Shown here in pieces: positions 302 to 11,981 of a DNA stretch of 11,981 nt. The first letter of the stretch is position 1, and each line of letters begins with the position of its first letter. The stretch is from a bacterium. GTDB taxonomy: Bacteria; Thermosulfidibacterota; Thermosulfidibacteria; Thermosulfidibacterales; JALWSI01. The notes under the pieces are model-generated. The model worked only from the letters and a program-made list of their open reading frames with translations. It was not told the DNA's origin and did not search any database. The DNA lies in contig JALWSI010000218.1 of the NCBI GenBank assembly GCA_027080315.1, forward strand, positions 1 through 11,981, written 5' to 3'. A program made the position numbers and the translations under genes.

Positions 302-306
302 GGAGG
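302..306 (+). promoter_or_regulatory. Shine-Dalgarno deciding the TolC-family start
   Basis: GGAGG at 302-306 is five bases from ATG at 312. The frame could also begin at GTG 306, but that codon lies inside the GGAGGTGA ribosome-binding sequence, so ATG 312 is the better start. Confidence 0.7.
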
Positions 307-311
307 TGAAA

Positions 312-1517
312 ATGAGAGGTTTAAAGATAATTATTGTGTTTTTTGCTTTTATGTTGGCCTTACCCATTGCATCTTATGGATCTGTTATCTTCCCATCTTC
401 CTGGGAAGATAATGTGACAATAGAGGACACTGGTAAGAAGTTAGAGGCCTTTGAGAACAAGTATCTAACCCTTCTAAACTCTCAAAAACCAGATTTAGGA
501 CTCTATCTTGTTACCGCTTATGAAAAAGACTTTGAGAGCGGAGAGAATAAGTACAACTACGGAATTGAGTGGAGACTTTTTGACGAGGGATGGTGGCAAT
601 CTAAAAGAGAGAAGATGAAGAAGATCTTAGAGACAAAGTTAGAGTTTCTACAGCTAAAGAGAAGTAATTTTCTAAAAAAGATCGTGCTCATGCGTCAGCA
701 CATTCATTTTGCCCATAACCGCCTTCTGTTTGAAAAGGCTTTATCAAGATCTAAGCTCTTAGAAAAGGTATTACAGAGGAGAAGAAAGGCACTTAAATCT
801 GGCTTTGCTACAAGGGTAGATGTGAAGCATTTAGAGACAGAACTTGAGATAGCAAACCAAGAAATAGAGTATCTAAAAACGGTTCCTAAGGAAGGGTTTA
901 CTTCGTATGAACTTAGCATCTTGAATAAGATAGAGTATGCGCCTTTAAAGCCATTGAACTCCTTGGTTAGCTTAGCAATAGAGAATAAACCCGACCTTAA
1001 GATTCAGGATGTTATGACTAAAAGGGCAGATTTTTTCCCATCATGGACTGATGATTTAGACGTAACACTATACGTCAAAAGGAGAAATGAGTTCTATGAG
1101 AGTCAGAGATGGTGTTATGGGGTAAAGGTAGCCATTCCTCTCTATTATAATGGTAAAAGAAGCAGGATTATAGAATTGCAAAAGTTGCTCTATGTAGATC
1201 AAAAGAACTTGATAAAGAGGCAGCTTAATGAAGAGCTTGCCATTAGGGTAGGAAGGTTTAAGAAGGCTCAATTTGAGGTTAAAAGAAGCCAGAGTCTTTA
1301 TAGCTTAGCTAAGCTTGAGCTTGAAGATGCTATCAAAAAAAGTAGATTACCCATACAGAACCTAAAGACCGAACCTTTGAGAAGTGTTGAGAGCTTGAGG
1401 TTGAAGGAGATTGATGCCAGATACAATGTGCTTGAGAATAGACTTAGAGCGTATCTTTACCTCTTAGATCTTTTAGAAGTTTGCGGCGTTAGTGATCCAC
1501 AAAGTGTAATCCAGTAG
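312..1517 (+). CDS. TolC-family outer-membrane efflux/export protein
   Basis: Probable trimeric outer-membrane channel of the TolC/OEP family, giving the exit route for the polymer or substrate handled by the neighbouring HlyD-type protein. The 401-residue product starts with a signal peptide (hydrophobic residues 5-20, cleavage near SYG-S at 23-24). It shows the two-repeat OEP pattern: a strand segment NYGIEWRLFDEGWW (82-95) leading into a long charged coiled coil (96-190), then a second strand segment YGVKVAIPLYYNGKRSR (269-285) leading into a second helical hairpin (286-388). At 401 residues it is shorter than typical TolC proteins (about 430-490). Its 3' end runs 29 nt into the convergent glycosyltransferase gene. 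The gene is AT-rich (33-38% GC in two sampled 60-base stretches), unlike the glycosyltransferase. The family call rests on pattern and context; the transported substrate is inferred. Confidence 0.75.
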   Translation: MRGLKIIIVFFAFMLALPIASYGSVIFPSSWEDNVTIEDTGKKLEAFENKYLTLLNSQKPDLGLYLVTAYEKDFESGENKYNYGIEWRLFDEGWWQSKREKMKKILETKLEFLQLKRSNFLKKIVLMRQHIHFAHNRLLFEKALSRSKLLEKVLQRRRKALKSGFATRVDVKHLETELEIANQEIEYLKTVPKEGFTSYELSILNKIEYAPLKPLNSLVSLAIENKPDLKIQDVMTKRADFFPSWTDDLDVTLYVKRRNEFYESQRWCYGVKVAIPLYYNGKRSRIIELQKLLYVDQKNLIKRQLNEELAIRVGRFKKAQFEVKRSQSLYSLAKLELEDAIKKSRLPIQNLKTEPLRSVESLRLKEIDARYNVLENRLRAYLYLLDLLEVCGVSDPQSVIQ

Positions 1518-4122
1518 CGATGTTGTCGGGCCCATTGGGTGGGGCAAAGCTGGCATCTTGGGGGATATAAACTACCCCTTTCCAGTGGTGCTCTGCTGGT
1601 ATGTTGAAGATGACGTCTTGTAGTGCATTATGATGCGGATAGCCGCCGTGGAAGTTGACGTCCACCTGAGAGTATAGGTGTCTGATCCCGTTGTAGGCTG
1701 AGCTCCACTGGATTGTGACATGCCTTATGTTCTTCACCCTTGCGCTCTCAAGCTGGCAGAGAAAAGAACGCGCCAATCGGAGATACCCGTTTCCCCCTTT
1801 TCCCTTGTTCCAGGCACCGTCTATCTTTATGTACCTGCCATTCACCTTATATACGGTGTCTAAGTTCAGGGGATGCCTGCCGGCGTTCCTTAGGTCAATG
1901 TTATCAAGGTCCACATAGGCTGCCTGGTTTATGAGAATAAGGTCTGTCTTGTCATCTGGCAGAAGGTTCTCGTAGGTGTGTGGAGGTGGCTCCTCATTGC
2001 CTCTGGGCTTGTACTCTATGCTGAGATTTCTGATACTTACGTGGTTCACCCTTTTTAAGAGAAAGACCTCTGTCTTATCCTTGGGGAAGTCAAAGAAGAT
2101 AGCCCTGTCAAGCAGTACCTGCCCCTCTTTCTCTAAGTTTATAACCTCAAAGACCTCTTGCCTTATGTAGGGGTATCTCTTCTTCCATCTAAGGCTTCCT
2201 ATCCTGTTCAGAAAGTTCTCGTCGTTTGGTCTTCTCAAAAGCAGAATGTCTCTTACCTTCACCTCTTCTTTTAGCCGTATAGAGACCTCTCCCTTCTGGG
2301 CGTCTTGAGCCAATCCAAAGAGTTTCTCTCTTTCACCCTTCACCGCAATCAGCGCCTCCATGGGCTTGTAGGCCATGATCTTTGTGTTTGATCCTTCCAA
2401 GGTGATGTGATCCCTCTTTATAAAAATGGGGGCATCTATGGTTATTGATTTAGAGGGTAGCCTAATAACAGCCCCTTTTGGGGCTTTCGTAATGGCCTCG
2501 TTTATGGCCTCGGCCCAGTTGCTATCTTCTGGGTTAGACAGCATTATCACCTCCGTCTTGTTGGGAGGGGCGAACACCCTGATGTCGGGAAAACTCACCA
2601 CCCTTTCTGATAAGACGAGGACGAAGATGAACGCCAAGGTTACTACGAACATAGCAAAGTTAGGCATTATTCCAGAGAGAGGATGTTTTGGTCTTCTCCA
2701 CCATGCAGAGGCGTCCTGTTCTGTTCCCCCCTTCTTCCACTTTTGGTGGGGTAGGTGGAAGTTCACCCATATCTTAACAAGCGCTCCCATCCATTGGTTG
2801 TATAGCATTAAAGGGACGGTTCTGTAGCTTATAGGGTGCCCTCCTAAGCCTATGACGGTTGATTGCAGGGTTCTAACCATAAGGACCCATGCCAGATAGA
2901 TGGGCATGTAAACCGGGTGCACCGCGATGCTCAGGATGATGGCAGAGGTTATTCCCACTAAGGCAGACCACATGGAGATCTTTTGATCCAGAATGGCGAG
3001 CCAGACAAACCATCCGCCTACCTTATCAGGGCCAAGGTCCAAAGCCCTTCTCGTGTTTCTTAAGGTGTTTCCATACCATCTAAAGAGTAGCTGTAGGCTA
3101 ACCTTTATGAAGTTCTCGTCTCTGCTTTCCATGGCGTAGCAGATGCTGTCGGGGATGTAGAGCATATCCCAGCCTTCCTTCAGCATCTGGAACCATGTGC
3201 TCTTGTCGTCTCCCATGAGAAAGCGGAACACCCCGAAGGTGGGGGTACTTAGGTAGTCCTTTTCAACCTTCTCTATGAACTCTTCTTTCACTATTGCTAC
3301 GGTGCGAAAAGCAGAGAACCTGCCTGTTAAGGTGAGAACCCTTTTTGACAAAGAGTGGGAGCCGAAGAGTATGTGTCTCTGTCCGAACTTCATGTTGAAC
3401 CAGTCTTTGTACCATCTTGACGAAGAGCTTATGTAGGCCACTTCGTTGGTGGTTACCGCCCCCAGGTTGGGAAAGGCCGTGAAGAAGGCAAGCACCTTCT
3501 CTAAGGTATGTGGTTCTAACACAGAGTCTCCGTCCATGAGAACAGTGACACTGTTGTAGTCCTCTTCATGCTTGAAGAACCTTCTGGAGACCGCTCTCAG
3601 AGCGTCTCCCATAGCCACTCTCTTTCCCTCGTGCTGCCTCTGCATAACCAATTCCACCTTTTGGGATACTGGATGGCTCTTGAACATAGAGGCAAAGAGG
3701 TGGTCTTCTTCATCAGAGGCTGTGGCAACAACCAAGGTGGCGTCGCAGGGAAGCCTTGAAAGCTCTGATAACAAAGACTGCAGCATCTCTACGGTTATCC
3801 ATGGTTTTTCCATGTAAGATGGGATGACAAAGTATATTCTTTGAGGCCTCAGTTCCTTCTTTTTTTCCCAGGTTTTGTATGCAAGCTCCCTCATCTTTGG
3901 ATAGGTGAAGAAGTGATAGATGACGGATCTTACGTAATTGGAGGCAAGCCAGAGGTATCGGTAGGCTGTGAACACCCCTACTGCTATTATGTGTTCGTTC
4001 TTTATGTAGTAGAAGTAAGGCCAAAATATGAAAGCGATGCCAAAGGCTATTCCTATGTAGAAGAGTCCCGGTCCTAAAAGGGACAGGGTTCCTTCCCTTA
4101 AGCCAAACTTCTTAAAATACAC
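1489..4122 (-). CDS. Alg8-like GT2 polysaccharide synthase fused to beta-helix domain
   Basis: Inner-membrane processive glycosyltransferase, likely polymerising an exopolysaccharide from nucleotide sugars. The 877 residues show two N-terminal membrane segments (about 14-37 and 45-62). A cytoplasmic GT-A domain follows (about 94-340) with VIPSY (99-103), the DGDS metal/UDP motif (197-200) and the MGDD catalytic-base motif (303-306). RWYGNTLRN (348-356) is preceded by Q344, one residue farther than in canonical QxxRW. More membrane segments lie at about 371-400, 404-425 and 488-506. After the last, residues about 510-877 form a pectate-lyase-like beta-helix, beginning with an N/W...AI..A pattern and the ITIDAPIFIKRDHITLEG rungs and ending in a His/aromatic-rich tail. 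The domain is probably periplasmic. The start is GTG, overlapping the upstream PilZ-HlyD gene by 11 nt (translational coupling). A normal Alg8 is about 490 residues, so the C-terminal extension is the oddity. The polymer is unknown. Confidence 0.8.
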   Translation of the reverse strand: MYFKKFGLREGTLSLLGPGLFYIGIAFGIAFIFWPYFYYIKNEHIIAVGVFTAYRYLWLASNYVRSVIYHFFTYPKMRELAYKTWEKKKELRPQRIYFVIPSYMEKPWITVEMLQSLLSELSRLPCDATLVVATASDEEDHLFASMFKSHPVSQKVELVMQRQHEGKRVAMGDALRAVSRRFFKHEEDYNSVTVLMDGDSVLEPHTLEKVLAFFTAFPNLGAVTTNEVAYISSSSRWYKDWFNMKFGQRHILFGSHSLSKRVLTLTGRFSAFRTVAIVKEEFIEKVEKDYLSTPTFGVFRFLMGDDKSTWFQMLKEGWDMLYIPDSICYAMESRDENFIKVSLQLLFRWYGNTLRNTRRALDLGPDKVGGWFVWLAILDQKISMWSALVGITSAIILSIAVHPVYMPIYLAWVLMVRTLQSTVIGLGGHPISYRTVPLMLYNQWMGALVKIWVNFHLPHQKWKKGGTEQDASAWWRRPKHPLSGIMPNFAMFVVTLAFIFVLVLSERVVSFPDIRVFAPPNKTEVIMLSNPEDSNWAEAINEAITKAPKGAVIRLPSKSITIDAPIFIKRDHITLEGSNTKIMAYKPMEALIAVKGEREKLFGLAQDAQKGEVSIRLKEEVKVRDILLLRRPNDENFLNRIGSLRWKKRYPYIRQEVFEVINLEKEGQVLLDRAIFFDFPKDKTEVFLLKRVNHVSIRNLSIEYKPRGNEEPPPHTYENLLPDDKTDLILINQAAYVDLDNIDLRNAGRHPLNLDTVYKVNGRYIKIDGAWNKGKGGNGYLRLARSFLCQLESARVKNIRHVTIQWSSAYNGIRHLYSQVDVNFHGGYPHHNALQDVIFNIPAEHHWKGVVYIPQDASFAPPNGPDNIATGLHFVDH

Positions 4123-5473
4123 TCTTCAGCCTTGAGAGAACTTCGTTCTTGAACCACACAACAACCCTTGAGTTTACTGGAAGCCCGGGATCTTTCAAAA
4201 AGTCTATCTTAACAATGGTTCCCTCTGTGCCAAATTCCTGGGTAGGGTATCCGATAACCGATATCCTTCCATCATAGGTTTTGCCGGTGACAGGAGAGTA
4301 TATCTTTACAGGCTCTTTTGCGGCTATCTTCGTTAATTCCCAGTTGGGAATATGGCAAAGGACGAAGAGGGGTTCTTTCTCCATCACAATCACTATGTCC
4401 CTTTCGTGGACAACTGAACCTTCAGGAAGCTTTATCTGTTTAACCCAACCACTGGTAGGGGCAACAACTTTTAGTCCCTTTATCTGGTCCTCTATCTCTC
4501 TCATCTCTGCCTTTAGCTGGCTTATCTTAATTGCTAATTCTGGCTTGCGAGAGGGACTATTTGCAGCCGATGCCTTGGCTTCTGCGAGCCTCAGTTTTAA
4601 TCTAATTAGATTTGCCTCTACGAACCTGAAATCCTTTATTGATATAACATGCTCATCAAACAATTTCTTAGCCTTTTTATATTCTTGAATCTGATATTTA
4701 TACAGCTCTTCTAAGGTCTTTATAACGGCGTCCTTGTTAGCATATTGATGTTTATTTTCTTCTTCTAATATATTTATCTGATTTTTAATCATACTTAGAC
4801 GATACAGAAGATGTGGGTTGTCTATCTCAAATAATACAGAACCACCATTGACATATTTGCCGATATTTGTGTGTATCTTAGCAACAACACCTTCTTCTTT
4901 AGAGCTTATATCTATTCTGTCTCCATGCACTATACCGTAGGTTTTAAAGATAAATATAGAGTTATACGCAATGAAGGCGAGTACTATGGATATAACGATA
5001 CCCCCAAAGACCAACCAGAATAACATGTGTCTTTTGAAGCTTCTATAAAGATTTGCTTCCTCTTCTTCAGCTAAGATGAGACTCTCTCCAATTGGAGTGT
5101 CAATAGATGGAAGATTAAGGGTAGCAATAACCGTTTCTATATCGTCTAATCTACCCTCTATTGCAAACTCTATATACTGCCTTATGGCTCGTCTCTTCTT
5201 TGGTGTTAGTTCTTCAAACTCAAAACCTACTTCTCCCTCTGCTACTCTTCTACAAACCATATCAACTGGAATTATCACAGAGGCTTCTTTGAAGGGCAGT
5301 ATGAGATTAGCACTAACTCTCTCACCAATATCCCATCTATCTCCGTTAGATTCAATGCCAATTCCAATTACAGAAAAATCCTTTGCTTTATAGGTTTTGT
5401 CTTCTATCTGAACGGCTACTGGGAGAGCAACTCTTTGTGCTCTTCTCTTTAGATTAGGTTCTTTCTCTATCAC
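4112..5473 (-). CDS. PilZ-TM-HlyD co-polymerase (Alg44-like)
   Basis: Likely c-di-GMP-responsive partner of the downstream synthase. The 453-residue protein has an N-terminal cytoplasmic PilZ domain (about 8-105) with both c-di-GMP signature motifs: RxxxR (R10, R14) and DxSxxG (D32, S34, G37). A membrane segment follows (about 149-176), then a periplasmic HlyD/RND adaptor part: lipoyl-like halves at about 185-220 and 334-365 around a coiled-coil hairpin (222-333), then beta-barrel sequence to the end. PilZ-TM-HlyD is the architecture of alginate Alg44. The start is GTG with AAGGAG seven bases upstream. The gene leads a two-gene operon with the synthase (11-nt overlap), and its periplasmic part is a natural partner for the TolC-family protein nearby. 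It is very AT-rich in the coiled coil (20% GC in 4741-4800). Architecture is clear; the activating role is inferred by analogy. Confidence 0.85.
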   Translation of the reverse strand: MIEKEPNLKRRAQRVALPVAVQIEDKTYKAKDFSVIGIGIESNGDRWDIGERVSANLILPFKEASVIIPVDMVCRRVAEGEVGFEFEELTPKKRRAIRQYIEFAIEGRLDDIETVIATLNLPSIDTPIGESLILAEEEEANLYRSFKRHMLFWLVFGGIVISIVLAFIAYNSIFIFKTYGIVHGDRIDISSKEEGVVAKIHTNIGKYVNGGSVLFEIDNPHLLYRLSMIKNQINILEEENKHQYANKDAVIKTLEELYKYQIQEYKKAKKLFDEHVISIKDFRFVEANLIRLKLRLAEAKASAANSPSRKPELAIKISQLKAEMREIEDQIKGLKVVAPTSGWVKQIKLPEGSVVHERDIVIVMEKEPLFVLCHIPNWELTKIAAKEPVKIYSPVTGKTYDGRISVIGYPTQEFGTEGTIVKIDFLKDPGLPVNSRVVVWFKNEVLSRLKSVF

Positions 5474-5793
5474 TTATAAACTCCTTACATCTCTTTTTAT
5501 CTCTCGCATTCATTTCCCACCTACCTTGGTTAAAGAGAGGATACCTTACTCCTACTCTCCTTAAGGCAACCTTCAATTCTGTCAAGATCTTAGCCTTCTC
5601 CCCAGCTCTCCCCCTTTTCCCAAAATGGCCTCTCTTCTCCTGCCGCTTTTTGATGTGCCTTTCTCTTTTAGCCTTCTGTTATCCTCCCTTCACCCCTGCA
5701 CCTTAGTCTCTTCTTCCCCCAAGGTTTCTCATTCTACCATACTTGGATGAGGTGTTCCACTCAGGGCATAAGATATTCCCTTGGCCTTTTGCA

Positions 5794-5813
5794 TCAATGG
5801 AACTTTCCATTGA
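5794..5813. promoter_or_regulatory. Operator-like 9-bp perfect dyad
   Basis: TCAATGGAA (5794-5802) and TTCCATTGA (5805-5813) are perfect inverted copies separated by two bases. The dyad overlaps the possible -35 box TTGACA (5810-5815), about 65 bp before the start codon of the secreted-protein gene. Its symmetry and position suggest a repressor site; no matching regulator lies in the window. Confidence 0.45.
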
Positions 5814-5837
5814 CAGATGGCAGTGGTAGCCTATCTC
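5810..5837 (+). promoter_or_regulatory. Possible sigma70-type promoter
   Basis: A perfect TTGACA (5810-5815) is followed after 16 bp by TATCTC (5832-5837), a weak -10 matching only the first three consensus bases. A smaller dyad, CCTAT/ATAGG (5830-5834 and 5839-5843), covers the -10. It would drive the gene at 5879. The poor -10 keeps confidence low. Confidence 0.3.
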
Positions 5838-5878
5838 AATAGGTAAGAGATATGCTTTGAGGGAAAGGAGGACTGCTC

Positions 5879-6271
5879 GTGAAAAGAGGGATGTTTATTG
5901 GCTTGTTGGTGGTTCTTTTTGTTGGTGTTGGGTTGTCGTTCTCCCTTGCTGGTGAAAGATACATCCTAGCTCAGGGCTCCAGGTTGTGTGATGATAGCGG
6001 CAGGTTCTGCTTTGATGGCTATATAAGCAGATATGCCCAGCGGCAGATTGTGATTGAGATAAAGGGAAGGGTTGCAAAGGGCTGTGATCCTGGAAAGGTT
6101 ATCTTTATCCTTGTAGGGGAGAACAAGGGCGGGGCTAAGTTCCGCAAAGAGGTGGCAGTTGATATCAAAGGCAGCTATGGAGAGATCATTGATAAGAAGG
6201 TAGGCATTGGCCGGGGCATCTCTGCTGATTGGAGGGTGGAGAAGGTGGTGTATATTCCTAAGGGGGAATAG
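5879..6271 (+). CDS. Small secreted protein of unknown function
   Basis: I do not recognise this 130-residue protein. It begins with a clear Sec signal peptide: KR at 2-3, a hydrophobic core 5-22, and a likely cleavage after SLA (24-25). The mature part is about 106 residues and probably beta-rich, with alternating hydrophobic stretches such as QIVIEIKGRV (56-65) and VIFILVGENKGG (74-85). It has three cysteines: C37 and C44 in a CDDSGRFC loop, which could form a disulfide, and C69. The start is GTG, with AAAGGAGG (5865-5872) six bases upstream, a strong ribosome-binding site that supports a real gene. It lies 32 nt before mntA on the same strand but has no obvious functional tie to it. A periplasmic or surface location is inferred. 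Confidence 0.65.
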   Translation: MKRGMFIGLLVVLFVGVGLSFSLAGERYILAQGSRLCDDSGRFCFDGYISRYAQRQIVIEIKGRVAKGCDPGKVIFILVGENKGGAKFRKEVAVDIKGSYGEIIDKKVGIGRGISADWRVEKVVYIPKGE

Positions 6272-6303
6272 AGATGCTTATTGAGGTTGTTTGGGAGTGA
6301 AGT

Positions 6304-6594
6304 ATGAATCTGGAGAGTGTATTGAGAAGGTTGAGAGAGCTGAAACCGTGGCTTAGGGATCGCTATAAGGTGGTAGAGATAGAGCTTTTTGGTTCTTTGG
6401 TTCGGGGAGATCATAGGAAAGAGAGTGATATAGATGTTCTGGTAGAGTTTGAAGAAGGAGCTGATCTCTTTGATCTGGTGGGATTGGGGTTGTACTTAGA
6501 AGAGGAGTTTGGCTGTTCTGTAGATGTGGTGCCGAAAAGGGTGCTGAGGAAGGAGTTAAGAGAGTCTGTTCTGAGTCAATCAGTAGCCGTATGA
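6304..6594 (+). CDS. mntA: MntA-type nucleotidyltransferase antitoxin
   Basis: Minimal nucleotidyltransferase (MNT) domain protein of the MntA/HepT (HEPN-MNT) toxin-antitoxin type. In characterised pairs MntA transfers AMP onto a tyrosine of the HEPN RNase and silences it. The 96 residues are a normal family length. The signature GSx10DxD is intact: G30-S31 then D42 and D44, with a third acidic residue D74 in the SVDVV strand, so all three expected metal ligands are present. GGGAG (6293-6297) is six bases before the ATG. The stop overlaps the next start as ATGA (6591-6594), typical of coupled antitoxin-toxin genes. The partner hepT is frameshifted, so this antitoxin may currently have no active target in this locus. 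Confidence 0.85.
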   Translation: MNLESVLRRLRELKPWLRDRYKVVEIELFGSLVRGDHRKESDIDVLVEFEEGADLFDLVGLGLYLEEEFGCSVDVVPKRVLRKELRESVLSQSVAV

Positions 6595-6921
6595 GGGACT
6601 ATAGACATATTATCGCTGCTATGAGGAGCATTGAGCTGTTTATTAAAGAAAGACATGGACTTTGATGCCTTTGAGTCAGACGATAAAACCTCCAGTGCGG
6701 TCATAAGGAAGCTGGAGATTATCGGAGAGGCCGTAAAAAAGATCCCAGATGATGTGCGTCAGAAGTGTCCTTCAATTCCCTGGAAAGAGATGGCTGGCAT
6801 GAGAGATAAATTGATACATTTCTATTTTGGTGTTGATAATAGATTGGTATGGAGGGCAATCACAGAGAGAGTGCCTCTCATCAGGCGAGAGATTGAGCTG
6901 ATACTTCGGAAAGAGAGCTAA
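6591..6921 (+). pseudogene. hepT: HepT-type HEPN RNase toxin, frameshifted
   Basis: HEPN-domain RNase toxin partner of MntA, broken by a one-base shift. ATG 6591 overlaps the mntA stop and opens a good HepT N-terminus (MRDYRHIIAAMRSIELFIKE) but reaches a stop at 6663-6665. The rest of the family (DMDFDAFESDDKTSS onward) continues in the +1 frame from 6652 to TAA at 6921. Removing one A in the AAAGAAAG stretch (6645-6652) restores a 109-residue protein, the normal length. The RNase motif Rx4HxY is intact in the downstream frame: R at 6802-6804, H at 6817-6819 and Y at 6823-6825, the Y being the residue AMPylated in studied pairs. Alternative starts in the second frame (TTG 6631, ATG 6655) would lose the first helix. 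A read error or programmed frameshift cannot be excluded. Confidence 0.8.
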
Positions 6922-6933
6922 ATATACTTTCGC

Positions 6934-7752
6934 TTATCTTCTTTTGAGCTTTGCTATGCGGCTCTTGGCCTTTTTGGCGTAAGGCGATTTTGGAAATTTT
7001 TTTATCAGCTTTCTCCACAGCAACTCTGCTGTCTTTGCATCACCGAGTCTGTAAAAGGCTTCTCCCTCTTTGTAGAGGGCTGGAGGAACCTTGGGGCTCT
7101 TGGGATAGAGGCTTGGCACCTTGTCGTAGGCCAGTATGGCCTCCTTATACTTGCCCATGGCAAAGAGGCTCTCTCCCATCCAGAACTGGGCATTCCCCGC
7201 CAAGGTCTCTTTGGGATACAAGGTGACATACTGGCTGAACCCATGGTAGGCATCCTGGTATCTTCTTGCCCTGAATGCGTTGAGAGAATTTTTGTAAAGG
7301 GTGTCTGGGGGAGGGGCCTCTTGTACCACCCGAGTTTCAATCTTTGGCTTCTGGCTCTTGGCTTTCTTTAGTTGCTGCTTCAGCTGCTGTTGTTGCTCCT
7401 CAAGTTCTGCTATCTGGCTCTTTAACTCTCTGATACTGCGATTACAGCGCTCTATGCCGTCGTTGAGCCGAGCGTCAGTCTCTGTCATCTCAAGGCGTTT
7501 TGCCTCGCTGTCTGCAAGGCGGCGCCTCAGCTCCTTGTTGGTCTCTTCCAAGGAGCTGAGGCGCGCTTCCATGTCGTCTTGTCTCTTTTGAAGGGCGGCT
7601 ATGGACTGAGAGAGCTGTTGGGAGAGCTCTCTTGCCATGACCTCTTGTTTTGTCTCTACTCTCTGCACATCACTGGTGGTGACGCACCCCTCAATCCCCA
7701 TGAGGGTTACACCCACAACGCAGCAAAGAAGAGAGAGTAGAACCCTTCTCAT
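6934..7752 (-). CDS. cpoB: Tol-Pal accessory protein YbgF/CpoB
   Basis: Periplasmic accessory protein of the Tol-Pal system. In E. coli, CpoB links Tol-Pal to peptidoglycan synthesis during division. The 272 residues start with a signal sequence (1-22) ending at C23. The preceding I-E-G is a poor lipobox, so lipidation is uncertain. A long charged, glutamine-rich coiled coil follows (about 30-135), then a Pro-rich hinge (PPPD, 147-150). Three C-terminal TPR-like repeats cover about 151-184, 187-220 and 223-258, the hallmark of this family (e.g. FRARRYQDAYHGFSQY). ATG 7752 is one base after the pal1 stop, so translation is probably coupled. It is the last gene of the operon and ends 12 bp from the convergent hepT, with no terminator hairpin between them. 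The C-terminus is unusually Lys/Arg-rich. Confidence 0.9.
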   Translation of the reverse strand: MRRVLLSLLCCVVGVTLMGIEGCVTTSDVQRVETKQEVMARELSQQLSQSIAALQKRQDDMEARLSSLEETNKELRRRLADSEAKRLEMTETDARLNDGIERCNRSIRELKSQIAELEEQQQQLKQQLKKAKSQKPKIETRVVQEAPPPDTLYKNSLNAFRARRYQDAYHGFSQYVTLYPKETLAGNAQFWMGESLFAMGKYKEAILAYDKVPSLYPKSPKVPPALYKEGEAFYRLGDAKTAELLWRKLIKKFPKSPYAKKAKSRIAKLKRR

Positions 7753-7753
7753 C

Positions 7754-8242
7754 TCACTTCTTTATAGCCTCTAAGTGGTCTCTTCTGTTCTGGGCCCAGC
7801 AGGCTTCATTGTGCTCGGTGCAAAGTGGACGCTCTTCCCCGTAGCTCACCGTTGAGATGCGCTCGGCGTCTATTCCCCTGCTAACCAGATAGACCTTGGC
7901 GGCATTGGCTCTCTTTTCGCCAAGTGCCATGTTGTACTGGGTTGAGCCTCTCTCATCGCAGTGTCCTTCTATAAGAAGCTTCTCGCAGGGGTGGTCCTGA
8001 AGATACTCTACCCACGCCTCTAAGATGGACTTCGCTGCGGGGGTGAGCTCGTAGCTGTCAAAGGCAAAGTGGATATCCTTTGTGAGCACCCCAGGAGCGG
8101 GTACCACTTCTCCCCCCGTGGCTCCTGCTTTGGCACTTGGCACAGGACAAGGACCGGGTCCCGTACATGTTCCCAACTGTGAACAGCAACCTGCCATCAC
8201 AATACCTGCCACCACAACCAACGATACCAGCATTCCCCTCAT
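7754..8242 (-). CDS. pal: Peptidoglycan-associated lipoprotein Pal, copy 1 (short)
   Basis: Outer-membrane lipoprotein with an OmpA-like peptidoglycan-binding domain, partner of TolB and TolA. The 162 residues have a signal peptide with lipobox VMAG-C (lipidated C19), a short linker rich in Gly, Pro and Cys (20-52), and the OmpA domain (55-162). That domain contains HFAFDSYEL (58-66), the peptidoglycan-contact segment GHCDERGSTQYN (93-104) and NRRDH (152-156). Three cysteines in the domain (C95, C141, C148) are shared with the second copy. A strong AGGAGG lies about eight bases before ATG 8242. It sits 30 nt after the longer pal paralogue and one base before ybgF. Hand alignment gives 74 of 108 identical residues to the other copy, so this is a tandem duplication. 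Confidence 0.9.
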   Translation of the reverse strand: MRGMLVSLVVVAGIVMAGCCSQLGTCTGPGPCPVPSAKAGATGGEVVPAPGVLTKDIHFAFDSYELTPAAKSILEAWVEYLQDHPCEKLLIEGHCDERGSTQYNMALGEKRANAAKVYLVSRGIDAERISTVSYGEERPLCTEHNEACWAQNRRDHLEAIKK

Positions 8243-8272
8243 GATCTAACCTCCTCCTTTCAATGTGGATAT

Positions 8273-8932
8273 TTACTCGCCAATGATCACTATGTGATCC
8301 CTTCTGTTTTTGGCCCAGCACTCCTCTGTGTGCTCGGTGCAGAGAGGCTTCTCTTCTCCGTAGCTGACGGTGTCTATGCGTGATGGGTCTATGCCCAGAT
8401 AGCCAAGGTACTCTTTGGCTGCGTTGGCCCTCTTCTCGCCAAGGGCAAGGTTGTATCTGGTTGAGCCCCTCTCGTCACAGTTCCCTTCAATGCGGATAGA
8501 GAGATTTGGATGCTGATGCAGATACTCTGCTACCGCTCCCAGTATCTCTTTGGCCTCTTCGCTTAGTGTGTAGCTATCAAAGGCGAAATGGATGTCTTTG
8601 TGCACCAGTTCCATTAGGCGCTGCAGCTCTTCGGCCTTTGCCTCGGCCTCTTTGGCCTTCTGGGCTTCAAGCCTGCGTCTCTCTGCTTCCATACGCTGGC
8701 GTTCAAGCTCTTCCTGTGAGAGCTGGTAGGGGGTCTTCCCTGTTGTGGGGGCTTCCACCACCTTTGCCTCAGACTTCTGAGGCTTGGGAGCCACTTGCAT
8801 TCCCTGTTTCTCGCCGGCCTTCACATACCCAGGAATCTGCTTCTTGGCAGGGCAGGTTCCCGTAGTGCACTCACAAGATACCATGAAGAGCCCTGCCAAT
8901 ACCAACACCGCAGCCATAGCCACACGTTTCAT
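8273..8932 (-). CDS. pal: Peptidoglycan-associated lipoprotein Pal, copy 2 (long linker)
   Basis: Second Pal-type lipoprotein, directly after tolB, the usual pal position. The 219 residues have a signal peptide and lipobox MVS-C (lipidated C20), and a linker of about 90 residues. The linker's second half (70-108) is a highly charged Glu/Arg/Ala helix that could form a coiled coil. The OmpA-like domain (112-219) contains HFAFDSYTL, GNCDERGSTRYN (150-161) and KNRRDH (208-213). The frame can be extended to a TTG at 8968 abutting the tolB stop, but only ATG 8932 has a strong ribosome-binding site and gives a clean lipoprotein signal, so I use it. Compared with copy 1 it has the longer reach, perhaps anchoring across a different envelope distance. 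Both copies keep the DERG and NRRD segments, so both probably bind peptidoglycan. Confidence 0.9.
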   Translation of the reverse strand: MKRVAMAAVLVLAGLFMVSCECTTGTCPAKKQIPGYVKAGEKQGMQVAPKPQKSEAKVVEAPTTGKTPYQLSQEELERQRMEAERRRLEAQKAKEAEAKAEELQRLMELVHKDIHFAFDSYTLSEEAKEILGAVAEYLHQHPNLSIRIEGNCDERGSTRYNLALGEKRANAAKEYLGYLGIDPSRIDTVSYGEEKPLCTEHTEECWAKNRRDHIVIIGE

Positions 8933-8938
8933 ATCTCT

Positions 8939-8946
8939 CCTCCTCC
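8939..8946 (-). promoter_or_regulatory. Shine-Dalgarno deciding the long pal start
   Basis: On the minus strand GGAGGAGG (8946-8939) ends six bases before ATG 8932. No such site precedes the upstream TTG at 8968. It lies downstream of the stem-loop at the tolB stop codon. Confidence 0.75.
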
Positions 8947-8968
8947 GCGCTATACTTTTGATTTTCAA

Positions 8969-10228
8969 TTACTGAAGCGATCTCCAACAGGGATCGCTTC
9001 CATTCAGTCTCCTCACCTTCACAATACCGTTGCCGTCCTCAGTGGTCAAATATAGAGTTCGTCGTGGGCCCTCTCCCTTAAAGAACATAAGATATCTCCC
9101 GTTGGGTGACCAGCAAGGGTCTTCGCCTTCTACAACCACCTTGCTGTTTCCGCTCTTCATATCAAGCACGTGGATAAGAATTTTTCCCCCTTCCACCGAA
9201 ACATAGGCCAGTTTGTCTCCTTTTGGAGACCAGGCCGGTGAGACCTCATAGGGTCCAAAGGTGAGCCTCGTCTGTTCACTTCCGTCTGGATTCATGATGT
9301 AGATGTGGGGGGCTCCGCTTCGTCTTGACACAAAGGCGATTTTGCGACCATCGGGAGACCAAGCTGGAGAGGTGTCTATCGCTGGGTTTCTTGTGATTCT
9401 TTTGGTGTATCCAGTTATCAAGTCCTTTATATAGATGTCGCTGTTTCCGTTTAGAGAGTAGCTGAAGGCCAGCTGCGTGCCGTCTGGAGACCAGGACGGA
9501 GAGATCTCTGCACCCTTTTTCTTAGAGAGCACCTTCACCCGTCCTGTGGCCACCTCTAAAAGATAGAGATCCGCCTCTCCCCGTTTGAAAGAGGTGTAGG
9601 CTATCCATCTGCCGTCAGGTGACCATGATGGGCACAGGTTTATTGAGTTGTCGTGGGTTAAAAGCTGGAAGGAAGAACCATCGGGAGAGATTATCCCTAT
9701 CTCTTTTATTCCTGGCCTGGTTCTCACAGAGAGAGCCACAGAGCTATAAAATATGCCTTCTTCTCCTGTGAAGGCTGTGAAGATATCGTCTGCCAGCCTC
9801 ATGCCCACCAGATCTTTTGCTTCTCTCTTTATTGAATACTTTCTGGCCAGAATCTCTTTGCCCTCAACAACATCAAACACCCTTGCAGAGAGGGAGAACT
9901 TTCCGTTTCTGGTTCCTCCGTGGGCTACCACCAAGATCTCTGCTCCAATGAAACGCCAGTCTTTAAAGTTGCCGTTCTCAAATCTGTTGGTGATGAAGGT
10001 CTTGGGGTCTATGATCTTAAATAGACCGTAGAGCTCAAGGTCTTTCTTGGTTACCTCTTGAACCCTTTTGGTGTCCGGATCCCCCTTCATGAGAAGGGCA
10101 ACAGAGACCAGCTTGCCCCCTGGCGAGGTGACATCAATGTAAACCTTGCCGTATCCTTGTGCAGAAAACAGCGTTGCTACCAGTATGGTCAATATCAGAC
10201 CAAAGAGCTTTCCATTTATATTCCTCAT
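8969..10228 (-). CDS. tolB: Tol-Pal periplasmic beta-propeller protein TolB
   Basis: Periplasmic component of Tol-Pal that binds Pal and, through its N-terminus, TolA. The 419 residues match the usual length (about 430). A signal peptide (1-27) precedes an alpha/beta N-terminal domain (about 28-165), which includes the D2-like DLELYGLFKIIDP region (63-75) typical of TolB. A six-bladed propeller (about 170-419) shows five clear WSPxG repeats with W at 202, 246, 290, 333 and 373, and a degenerate last one (DPCW, 412-415). ATG 10228 is preceded by AGGAGGG at good spacing. The gene starts 12 nt after tolA and ends 36 nt before the long pal. A perfect stem-loop covers its last codons. Nothing essential appears missing. 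Confidence 0.95.
   Translation of the reverse strand: MRNINGKLFGLILTILVATLFSAQGYGKVYIDVTSPGGKLVSVALLMKGDPDTKRVQEVTKKDLELYGLFKIIDPKTFITNRFENGNFKDWRFIGAEILVVAHGGTRNGKFSLSARVFDVVEGKEILARKYSIKREAKDLVGMRLADDIFTAFTGEEGIFYSSVALSVRTRPGIKEIGIISPDGSSFQLLTHDNSINLCPSWSPDGRWIAYTSFKRGEADLYLLEVATGRVKVLSKKKGAEISPSWSPDGTQLAFSYSLNGNSDIYIKDLITGYTKRITRNPAIDTSPAWSPDGRKIAFVSRRSGAPHIYIMNPDGSEQTRLTFGPYEVSPAWSPKGDKLAYVSVEGGKILIHVLDMKSGNSKVVVEGEDPCWSPNGRYLMFFKGEGPRRTLYLTTEDGNGIVKVRRLNGSDPCWRSLQ
8974..9000 (-). promoter_or_regulatory. Perfect 9-bp stem-loop at tolB 3' end
   Basis: GAAGCGATC (8974-8982) and GATCGCTTC (8992-9000) are perfect inverted copies with a nine-base loop, lying in the last codons of tolB on the minus-strand transcript. 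The stem is followed by AGTAATTGAAAA rather than a T-run, so it is not a standard intrinsic terminator. It could be an RNA-processing or stabilising element that sets pal expression apart from tolQRAB, or weak attenuation. Confidence 0.5.
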
Positions 10229-10240
10229 CTTCCCTCCTTT

Positions 10241-11122
10241 TTAAGGTCTGAACCTTATGCCTACTTCCATCTCGTCTCCTGGGTAATCCTTGGGTAAGGG
10301 GGCAAAGGGAGCCGCCTTTCTAACCGCCCTTAAGACTGACCTGTCGAAAAAGACATTTCCCGAGGTGGTTTCAAGCTCCACCTTCTTCAGGCTACCATCC
10401 TTTTCTATGGTTATGGTCACAATGGCCTCTAACTTTGCTTGCTCATCCACCTCTGGGGGAAGCACCCACGCGTCTCTAACCTTTTGGGATATGGAATTAT
10501 AGTAGCTCTGAAACCTAGTTTCAACTGCGCGAGGGTTCACTGCGGTTCCTCTCATGCGACCGGGTTTAACCTGTCCTACCTCTTTTGAGATCTTAGCCAA
10601 AGCCTTTGCTATCTGGGCGTCGGGAGCAGGCTCTTGTTGTTTCTTTTGTTTCTTTACAGGCTTCTTTTTTACTACCTTCTTCTTTCTATTCTTTGTAGCT
10701 TTTTTCGCCTTCTTTTTAGTACTCTTCTTTTCTACCTTCTTCTTTTTGGTCTTTTCTCTCTTTTTTGCAGGCTTCTTAGCCGCCTTCTTTTTGGGAGGCA
10801 CTTTCTTCTTCTCTTTGGGTAGTTTCCAGGCGGTTTTGCTCTTCTTTTCAGGAGGAGGGCTGCTCTTCTTAACCTCTTTTTTTACCTGTGCTCGCCTTTT
10901 TGGGGGTACGGTTTTGGTCTTCTGGCTCTTCTGCTGCACCACCTGAGGACCTAATAGGGCCACGGTGTAGGTGGGAATAAATATTCTCTTAGGCTTGTAG
11001 TATCGTTGCCAGAGTAGCACCCCTCCCACTAAGGATGCGTGTAACAGTACAGATACCAGAAAGGCTGCTATCCACGACGAAGGGGATATCCCTGAAGAGC
11101 CGTAACCCTCTTCTCGTATCAC
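10241..11122 (-). CDS. tolA: TolA/TonB-family energy-transducing protein
   Basis: Inner-membrane-anchored protein that carries force from TolQR to TolB-Pal. Its 293 residues have the three-part TolA layout. An N-terminal anchor helix (about 17-38) contains the SVLLHASLV segment, where the conserved Ser and His contact the motor. A lysine-rich stalk (62-161) follows, with about 46 lysines in 100 residues. A C-terminal TolA/TonB domain (about 195-293) contains YYNSISQKVRDAWVLP, VTITIEKDGSLKKVEL and the S-G-N...D.S...A..KA.PF pattern. The start is GTG; an in-frame TAA lies six bases upstream, so no longer start is possible, and a GGAAGGG lies about nine bases away. It sits 50 nt after tolR and 12 nt before tolB. 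The stalk is much more lysine-dense than the Ala/Lys/Glu stalk of E. coli TolA. Context decides TolA over TonB. Confidence 0.9.
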   Translation of the reverse strand: MIREEGYGSSGISPSSWIAAFLVSVLLHASLVGGVLLWQRYYKPKRIFIPTYTVALLGPQVVQQKSQKTKTVPPKRRAQVKKEVKKSSPPPEKKSKTAWKLPKEKKKVPPKKKAAKKPAKKREKTKKKKVEKKSTKKKAKKATKNRKKKVVKKKPVKKQKKQQEPAPDAQIAKALAKISKEVGQVKPGRMRGTAVNPRAVETRFQSYYNSISQKVRDAWVLPPEVDEQAKLEAIVTITIEKDGSLKKVELETTSGNVFFDRSVLRAVRKAAPFAPLPKDYPGDEMEVGIRFRP

Positions 11123-11172
11123 TTGTTAAGGCCCTTCCTCTCTTGCTCTAAGGTCAGAGGGAGGCATGAGTC

Positions 11173-11619
11173 TCACCTCTTCTTGCGGCTGTATGGTCTG
11201 CTTCTTCTGCTCTTTTTCTGGAATGCTGCTTCGGGCTTTGTAACCAGTCCCACCTTCTTGAAACCTGCTGCCTTCACGGCCCCGAGCACCCTTATTACGT
11301 TTTTGTAGGCGGTATCTCCGTCTCCCCTTATGGCAACTTGTCGGTCGGGCATTATGGAGTAGAGCGCCTTCAGCTTTGGCCCCAGGTCTTTTAGCTGGTA
11401 GGCATGCCGGTTTAAAAATATGGAGCCGTCTCTCAGCACCGTTATCACTATGGGTTCCTTCTTGCTACGCAGGGGTGCTGCGGTTGTGTGGGGCAGCTCA
11501 ACCTTAACACCGTGGATAAGCATAGGGGTGGTCACCATGAAGATGATGAGGAGCACCAGCATCACATCAACCAAGGGGGTGACGTTTATCTGTGACACCA
11601 TGCCCCGATTATTCCTCAT
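11173..11619 (-). CDS. tolR: TolR/ExbD-family motor protein
   Basis: Inner-membrane motor subunit that works with TolQ to use the proton gradient. The 148 residues start with a short cytoplasmic tail. A single membrane helix (about 17-36) contains the essential aspartate D18 in the motif [19 protein letters not shown]. The periplasmic ExbD domain (about 50-130) includes [34 protein letters not shown] basic tail (134-148, [15 protein letters not shown]) extends beyond the usual domain end. ATG 11619 lies inside the last codons of tolQ (11-nt overlap) and has an AAGGA a few bases upstream, indicating coupled translation and matched amounts. ExbD is the alternative name for this fold, but the flanking tolA, tolB and pal genes settle the TolR role. 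Confidence 0.93.
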
Positions 11620-11981
11620 AGGTTCCTTCCAGCATGTTCATGAATTCAAAGGCGTGGGCCCTCAGCCCGTCTTCCATTCTCTCAACCTTTGCCAGAAAGT
11701 GGTTGTAGGCCACCACTGCAGGAACCGCCACTGCTATGCCTAAGGCTGTGGTGATGAGGGCCTCTGATATACCCGGAGCCACCACCGCCAAACTGGCAGA
11801 TCCTTTAACCCCTATCTGATGGAATGCCCGCATTATTCCCCATACGGTTCCAAAGAGCCCTATGAAGGGGGCGGTGTTGCCAACTGTGGCCAGAAATCCC
11901 AGCCACGAGTGGAGTCTGCCCCGATTCAAGAGGATCACCTCCTCAACCACCCGTTCCCAAACCATGGCACGTTGGGATGAA
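11609..11981 (-). CDS. tolQ: TolQ/ExbB-family motor protein (5' part outside window)
   Basis: C-terminal half of the TolQ proton-channel subunit; the frame stays open to the window edge, so the N-terminus lies beyond it. An internal ATG (11965) is not the start, because conserved family sequence (QRA before MVWERVVEE) continues upstream. Counting from that methionine, residues 21-45 form a membrane helix with the family motif [17 protein letters not shown], and residues 68-90 form the next ([25 protein letters not shown]). Both contain threonines (T31, T72/T73) of the kind that line the channel in characterised TolQ/ExbB. The loop between them carries [10 protein letters not shown] and VAPGISEAL as expected. 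About 123 of a usual 230 or so residues are visible. The 3' end overlaps tolR by 11 nt. Confidence 0.93.

Follow-up and report, generated by a model that had tools for sequence, protein, structure and literature searches.

Can a polysaccharide synthase, a PilZ-bearing adaptor and a TolC-like protein, encoded side by side, form a complete exopolysaccharide machine under the control of cyclic di-GMP (c-di-GMP), and through which channel would its polymer leave the cell? This question is raised by a stretch of 11,981 nucleotides from a bacterium of the Thermosulfidibacterota (JALWSI010000218.1, assembly GCA_027080315.1), hereafter the window, which is a complete contig (C218) whose sequence ends at base 1 and which belongs to a 1.84-Mb draft genome that is 94% complete. 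A sequence-only reading had proposed three such genes here, and all three open reading frames (ORFs) were found intact, spanning 306-5473, with the expected Pfam domains: PilZ (8.6e-10), HlyD_D23 (2.1e-9) and HlyD_3 (6.7e-8) in the PilZ-HlyD protein, Glyco_tranf_2_3 (1.5e-34) in the family 2 glycosyltransferase (GT2) and OEP (PF02321) in the TolC-like protein, the last of these (9.1e-4, 19.5 bits) below the 22-bit gathering cut-off. The features are listed below, with transmembrane abbreviated as TM.

306-1517, + strand: TolC-like gene, 403 amino acids (aa); start GTG at 306, alternative ATG at 312
1489-4122, - strand: GT2 synthase with a beta-helix domain fused at its C-terminus, 877 aa (Pfam, Alg8 identity, tree, AlphaFold2 (AF2) model)
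2623-4122, - strand: Alg8-like synthase part, residues 1-500 (catalytic motifs, TM prediction)
1492-2550, - strand: fused right-handed beta-helix domain, residues 525-877, lyase/epimerase-like (predicted fold, conservation)
4112-5473, - strand: PilZ-TM-HlyD gene, 453 aa (Pfam, TM prediction, hairpin and motif alignment, PDB profile search)

An operon-like overlap of 11 bp joins the PilZ-HlyD gene to the GT2 gene. The TolC-like gene, on the other strand, converges on the GT2 gene, their 3' ends overlapping by 29 bp. The Rfam scan of the window returned no RNA families, and the promoter and terminator scan scored no higher than shuffled sequence.

The reading preferred here, at a probability of about 0.7, is that the cassette encodes a compact exopolysaccharide system of the synthase-dependent kind, which is activated by c-di-GMP, has a dedicated TolC-type exit and makes a polymer that likely contains glucuronate. 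Given the intact motifs and the analogy with Alg44 and Alg8, c-di-GMP would bind the adaptor's PilZ domain and switch on the adjoining Alg8-like synthase in the inner membrane, which would polymerise an activated sugar and hand the chain to the periplasm, the likeliest product being derived from UDP-glucuronic acid (UDP-GlcA) and containing glucuronate. The beta-helix behind the last TM segment, with its predicted fold and conserved site, may then meet the emerging chain and cleave or epimerise its uronate residues, while the tip of the adaptor hairpin would dock on the channel formed by the neighbouring TolC-like gene product, giving a closed duct that replaces AlgE/AlgK.

The adaptor, the synthase and its fused beta-helix

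The adaptor consists of a cytoplasmic PilZ domain (residues ~1-110), a TM segment (~150-168) and periplasmic lipoyl and beta-barrel parts, in which an alpha-hairpin (~220-336) is inserted. Both c-di-GMP motifs of the PilZ domain, RxxxR and D/NxSxxG, are present as R10, R14, D32, S34 and G37, exactly the residues previously named from the sequence, and they are invariant in the 10 aligned adaptors, the relatives that cover those positions. The same genome holds 11 GGDEF matches. When a profile of ten adaptors was searched against the PDB, the periplasmic part matched EmrA (4.6e-27 over 142-448), as well as LipC and HlyD structures, and the N-terminus matched the PilZ structures of Alg44 (3.6e-8). 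The alignment by hhalign with the Alg44 profile gave a probability of 99% (E 6.8e-18) and left the hairpin without a counterpart in Alg44, so that by sequence the protein appears to combine a PilZ domain like that of Alg44 with an adaptor of the EmrA type.

The hairpin is 116 aa long in the window and 116-162 aa across the family, as against 31 in the corresponding region of the true Alg44 of P. aeruginosa and 9 in the roseobacter and rhizobial proteins. Its tip reads K267-x3-L271-x6-S278, with L271 and S278 at the exact spacing of RxxxLxxxxxxS (RLS/RLT), the TolC-binding motif of adaptors (PMC3391258), and K267 in place of the arginine. Most adaptors retain the L and the S/T at this spacing, and the first position is variable. 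The long hairpin and near-RLS tip, both of them features of TolC-docking adaptors that are missing from ordinary Alg44, offer the best mechanistic clue to a possible docking of the adaptor on a TolC-type channel, which favours the partnership that had been proposed for the HlyD part. As a separate observation, the Alg44-like proteins of roseobacter and rhizobial alginate operons (L015, L016, L017) have neither the RxxxR motif nor the hairpin, and their control may therefore differ from that of Pseudomonas.

Over residues ~41-504, the synthase shares 33-36% identity with Alg8 proteins, and its catalytic motifs are intact. Both the DGDS (D197-G-D199) and the GDD (G304-D-D306) of the sequence-only reading are in place, accompanied by an RW motif (R348-W349). 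The AF2 model of the whole GT2-helix protein has a mean predicted local distance difference test score (pLDDT) of 86.5, and the nearest solved folds to the synthase part are hyaluronan synthases (Z 26.9). In the synthase tree, the cassette synthases form a clade with support of 100/100 that is sister to Alg8, and the proposal of an Alg8/Alg44-like core is upheld by the identity, the motifs and the Alg44 profile alignment together. The last TM segment (~485-503) is preceded by a K/R-rich loop, and by the positive-inside rule the helix domain that follows would therefore be periplasmic.

This separate, enzyme-like beta-helix domain makes up the C-terminal ~350 residues of the GT2 protein. It is modelled with high confidence by AF2 and matches the K1 capsule lyase 7w1c (Z 31.1, 301 residues, root-mean-square deviation (rmsd) 2.5), the alginate epimerase/lyase 8ja4 (Z 25.5) and AlgE4 (Z 24.6). 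Its invariant residues are R654, W771-N-K773-G, R800-H801, Q805-W806 and D821-x-N823-x-H825-GG. The closest relatives of the domain are a hypothetical protein of Thermus and a "GH55-like" protein of Vibrio; AlgG was also considered as a relative and was ruled out by profile comparison. In four Vibrio records, a free-standing relative belongs to a single conserved cluster that also encodes glucuronate isomerase, a KdgM porin, heparinase- and alginate-lyase-family proteins and sodium:solute symporters, and a Cellvibrionaceae locus with a free-standing relative also has a UxaC match. Taken with the predicted fold, these features indicate that the fused helix is probably a domain of the uronate lyase/epimerase type with a conserved site that is probably active.

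Two side observations concern this domain. The beta-helix enzyme of the conserved glucuronate-utilisation clusters (L020 8013-10007, and the Vibrio loci L041, L042 and L045) is a candidate new polyuronate lyase family. In the synthase of Ramlibacter terrae (L037 ~8360-8432), the helix part is split over two frames, through either a sequence error or a pseudogene.

The TolC-like neighbour and the spread of the cassette

The "TolC-type" label was the weakest part of the sequence-only reading, and even a weak OEP match is found in only one of ten members of the TolC-like family. The AF2 model (pLDDT 80, predicted template modelling score 0.70) nevertheless has two beta-hairpins and long helices, which is the layout of an outer-membrane factor (OMF) protomer, and it superposes on TolC with Z 20.9 and an rmsd of 5.4 over 354 residues. 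By this model, the protein is divergent in sequence and has the same predicted fold as TolC, in agreement with the label. A signal-like segment is located at its N-terminus (~5-23).

Relatives of the cassette were found through a profile of the helix domain (residues 525-877) on the species genomes of GTDB, which gave 24 loci, of which 15 (L025-L039) are GT2-helix fusions or fragments thereof; a search of genome contigs with the single window protein gave no whole-protein relatives. Further Campylobacterota loci were added, and PilZ-HlyD lies directly upstream of the GT2-helix gene wherever that side has sequence. The hosts of the pair are Campylobacterota, Gammaproteobacteria, Betaproteobacteria (Ramlibacter), Desulfovibrionaceae and Aquificaceae. 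The arrangement is not due to chance, because it was found again in more than 15 other genomes.

The synthase tree separates two clades, which group together, separate from Alg8, with support of 100/100: clade A (14 rows, support 100/99), which includes the window and has the TolC-like gene, and clade B (support 93/92), in which no such gene is adjacent. The TolC-like gene adjoins the cassette in the window, L025-L030, L034, L035 and L037 by profile search, and in L097, L101, L108, L109 and L110 by tblastn. The same profile search found no adjacent TolC-like gene in L031, L033, L036 and L038. Since the neighbour is kept in all 15 clade A loci whose downstream side has sequence, despite being convergent in eight and co-oriented in seven, the linkage of cassette and TolC-like gene outlives rearrangement. 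The sequence-only reading had staked its case on the three genes recurring together in other genomes, and this was borne out for clade A, and not for clade B, where the pair stands without an adjacent TolC-like gene and where the exit partner may therefore be exchangeable. Its further suggestion, that the HlyD part and a TolC-like channel take the place of the alginate exit, agrees with the hairpin, the tip motif, the TolC fold and the clade A linkage, which make the docking of the two plausible.

The cassette is absent from the eight other species genomes of the window's own order, and in this lineage it was therefore probably acquired horizontally or is a relict. The nearest tree rows to the window synthase are gammaproteobacterial, a placement without strong support.

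Other observations were made in the Campylobacterota. Some TolC-like proteins carry an N-terminal SPOR-like (peptidoglycan-binding) domain (L030 7814-9343, L034 823-2427 and possibly L027), and in L025 the TolC-like gene is closely followed by a cellulose-synthase-like gene with a PilZ domain (4545-6815). A homologue of the pair without a fused helix (L111 5465-8481, - strand) falls in clade B; a 356-aa ORF upstream of its adaptor (8474-9541) has a hairpin-like stretch and may be a very divergent TolC-like protein, its hhalign probability being only 1.8%, which is not significant. Finally, a true Alg8-type synthase, a PilZ protein and a nucleotide-sugar dehydrogenase occur together in L112 (G619:C20), a possible operon of the alginate type.

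The polymer and the rival explanations

The window's own genome has one clear nucleotide-sugar dehydrogenase, a UDP-glucose dehydrogenase by type, which scores 564 bits with the TuaD model as against 256 for P. aeruginosa AlgD. In 14 of the 15 other cassette genomes, all such dehydrogenases are of the UDP-glucose (Ugd) or WecC/TviB kinds, and the remaining genome has none, so that an AlgD-type GDP-mannose dehydrogenase was found in 0 of these 16 draft genomes, as against 15 with a UDP-glucose dehydrogenase. No homologues of AlgA, AlgG, AlgK, AlgI or AlgJ/X were found in the window or in L025-L039 (tblastn, 1e-3). In three Ramlibacter, the UDP-glucose dehydrogenase gene adjoins the adaptor gene in divergent orientation. 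From the lack of AlgD-type and Alg accessory genes and the presence of the Ugd type, we infer, tentatively and at somewhat short of even odds, a polymer based on UDP-GlcA rather than alginate.

Several observations weigh against a c-di-GMP-activated system with a TolC-type exit and a glucuronate-containing product. UDP-glucose dehydrogenase is widespread, so that the evidence on the polymer is suggestive only, and the genomes compared are drafts. The first RLS position is K in the window adaptor and N or other residues in most clade A members, and the clade B cassettes, of Desulfovibrionaceae and Aquificaceae, are without an adjacent TolC-like gene. The window's own genome further contains four ordinary OEP genes and, on contig C148, an unlinked porin of the Alginate_exp family (with no similarity to AlgE by tblastn), all of which are possible alternative exits. 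Together with the opposite strand of the TolC-like gene in the window, the clade B cassettes and these other channels would suit a system in which the pair makes the polymer and the TolC-like neighbour is not its exit, the chain either using another channel or staying on the surface. This is unlikely, given that the linkage holds in 15/15 clade A loci across phyla despite the changes of orientation, that the adaptor hairpin has an RLS-like tip and that 14 of the 15 other cassette genomes have no Alginate_exp match above the cut-off. It is far less probable again that the adaptor and the TolC-like protein export something else, such as a glycolipid or a protein, while the GT2 acts separately. 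Drug or protein export is the usual role of EmrA/HlyD-type adaptors, but no recurrent ABC, MFS or RND transporter was found among the scanned cassette neighbours, and PilZ-HlyD directly adjoins a GT2 of the processive type with an RW motif, for which Alg44-Alg8 offers the precedent (PMC8461298).

The product and the helix may also be read in other ways. A reduced alginate (polymannuronate) system, in which the synthase would use GDP-mannuronic acid and the beta-helix would be a C5-epimerase replacing AlgG, would account for the sister position to Alg8, the Alg44-like PilZ domain and a fold near alginate epimerase/lyase and AlgE4 (Z 24.6-25.5); it is nonetheless improbable, as only Ugd- or WecC/TviB-like dehydrogenases occur in place of AlgD, the cassette loci are devoid of the Alg homologues listed above and the helix is unrelated to AlgG by profile. 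Slightly less improbable is a helix that is dead, or purely a structural or binding domain, since a fold alone is no sign of activity and the helix has no catalytic assignment. On the other hand, R654, K773, R800, H801, D821, N823 and H825 are invariant in both the fused and the free-standing relatives, some of the latter sitting in polyuronate-degradation clusters.

Related systems, neighbouring genes and meaning

The closest known relative is the alginate core of Pseudomonas and Azotobacter (algD operon), whose inner-membrane pair Alg8/Alg44 is the precedent for the joint action of synthase and adaptor (PMC8461298, PMC9734138). It shares with the cassette a GT2 synthase with homology along its whole length, an adjacent PilZ-TM-adaptor and intact c-di-GMP motifs. 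The differences are the long hairpin of the TolC-docking type in the adaptor, the enzyme-like beta-helix fused to the synthase, the TolC-like gene instead of AlgE/AlgK and the absence of AlgD and the accessory genes. Given that AlgD, linkage to AlgE/AlgK and modification genes were each looked for and not found, the cassette falls outside the alginate system as it is defined. An alginate operon (algD-alg8-alg44-algK-algE) was also seen within the UNVERIFIED record of "Pseudomonas phage Y5" (L021, OQ572407.1), which is therefore probably bacterial DNA or a mis-assembly.

A second relative is the XcsA-XcsB-TolC model for cellulose in Thermosynechococcus (Maeda 2018), for which the genes are scattered and experimental proof is lacking (reviewed in PMC12430437). 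Here too, a synthase, an HlyD-like adaptor and a TolC-type channel would form a tripartite exporter under PilZ control, but in Xcs the PilZ domain is on the synthase rather than on the adaptor, the product is cellulose and there is no fused modifying enzyme; a phylum-wide survey of cyanobacteria found no PilZ-HlyD proteins (PMC4594306). EmrA/HlyD adaptors and TolC-type OMFs resemble the cassette proteins in the lipoyl and hairpin architecture, in the near-RLS tip (with K267 for the arginine) and in the predicted TolC fold, and differ in that the inner-membrane partner here is a glycosyltransferase and not a transporter and that the adaptor bears a PilZ domain. Similarly, the beta-helix lyases and epimerases (7w1c, 8ja4, AlgE4) share the fold of the helix domain (Z 24.6-31.1), which has only ~14% identity to them, matches no Pfam family and is fused to a membrane synthase. 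The BgsA/BgsB system has an adaptor-like partner as well, and it is not known to have a PilZ adaptor, a fused helix or a linked TolC. This mixed-linkage beta-glucan system of the Rhizobiales has in common with the cassette a c-di-GMP-activated GT2, the c-di-GMP being bound at the C-terminus of the synthase (PMC5567048).

In the rest of the window, a 130-aa, secreted-looking small protein without a Pfam family (5879-6271, + strand) lies between the cassette and a gene pair at 6304-6921 (+ strand), made up of an MntA-like nucleotidyltransferase (Pfam NTP_transf_2, 1.6e-16) and an adjoining HepT-like ORF (2.6e-27). By sequence, this pair would be an MNT/HEPN toxin-antitoxin, both scores being under the NCBIfam equivalog cut-offs and the HepT ORF being short. 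The region 6934-11965 (- strand) is a tol-pal cluster by ORF reading (CpoB-like, TolB, TolA/TonB-like, TolR, TolQ), with two tandem Pal-like lipoproteins (7754-8242 and 8273-8968) that are apparently a duplication.

No description of this cassette was found in the open-access literature that was searched. The chances are about even that the cassette represents a distinct secretion class, that is, a c-di-GMP-gated synthase with its own periplasmic lyase/epimerase, a PilZ adaptor and a linked, dedicated TolC-type duct, found across phyla and producing a glucuronate-based polymer. In the searchable literature, cyanobacterial cellulose is the only synthase-made polysaccharide for which a TolC-type exit has been put forward (PMC12430437), and the genetic linkage of the three parts across phyla makes this idea directly testable in culturable members such as Ramlibacter, with Halodesulfovibrio as a culturable member for the form without an adjacent TolC. 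The cassette also joins a synthase to a predicted polymer-modifying enzyme of its own, and it may provide a route to a uronic-acid polymer that is not alginate.

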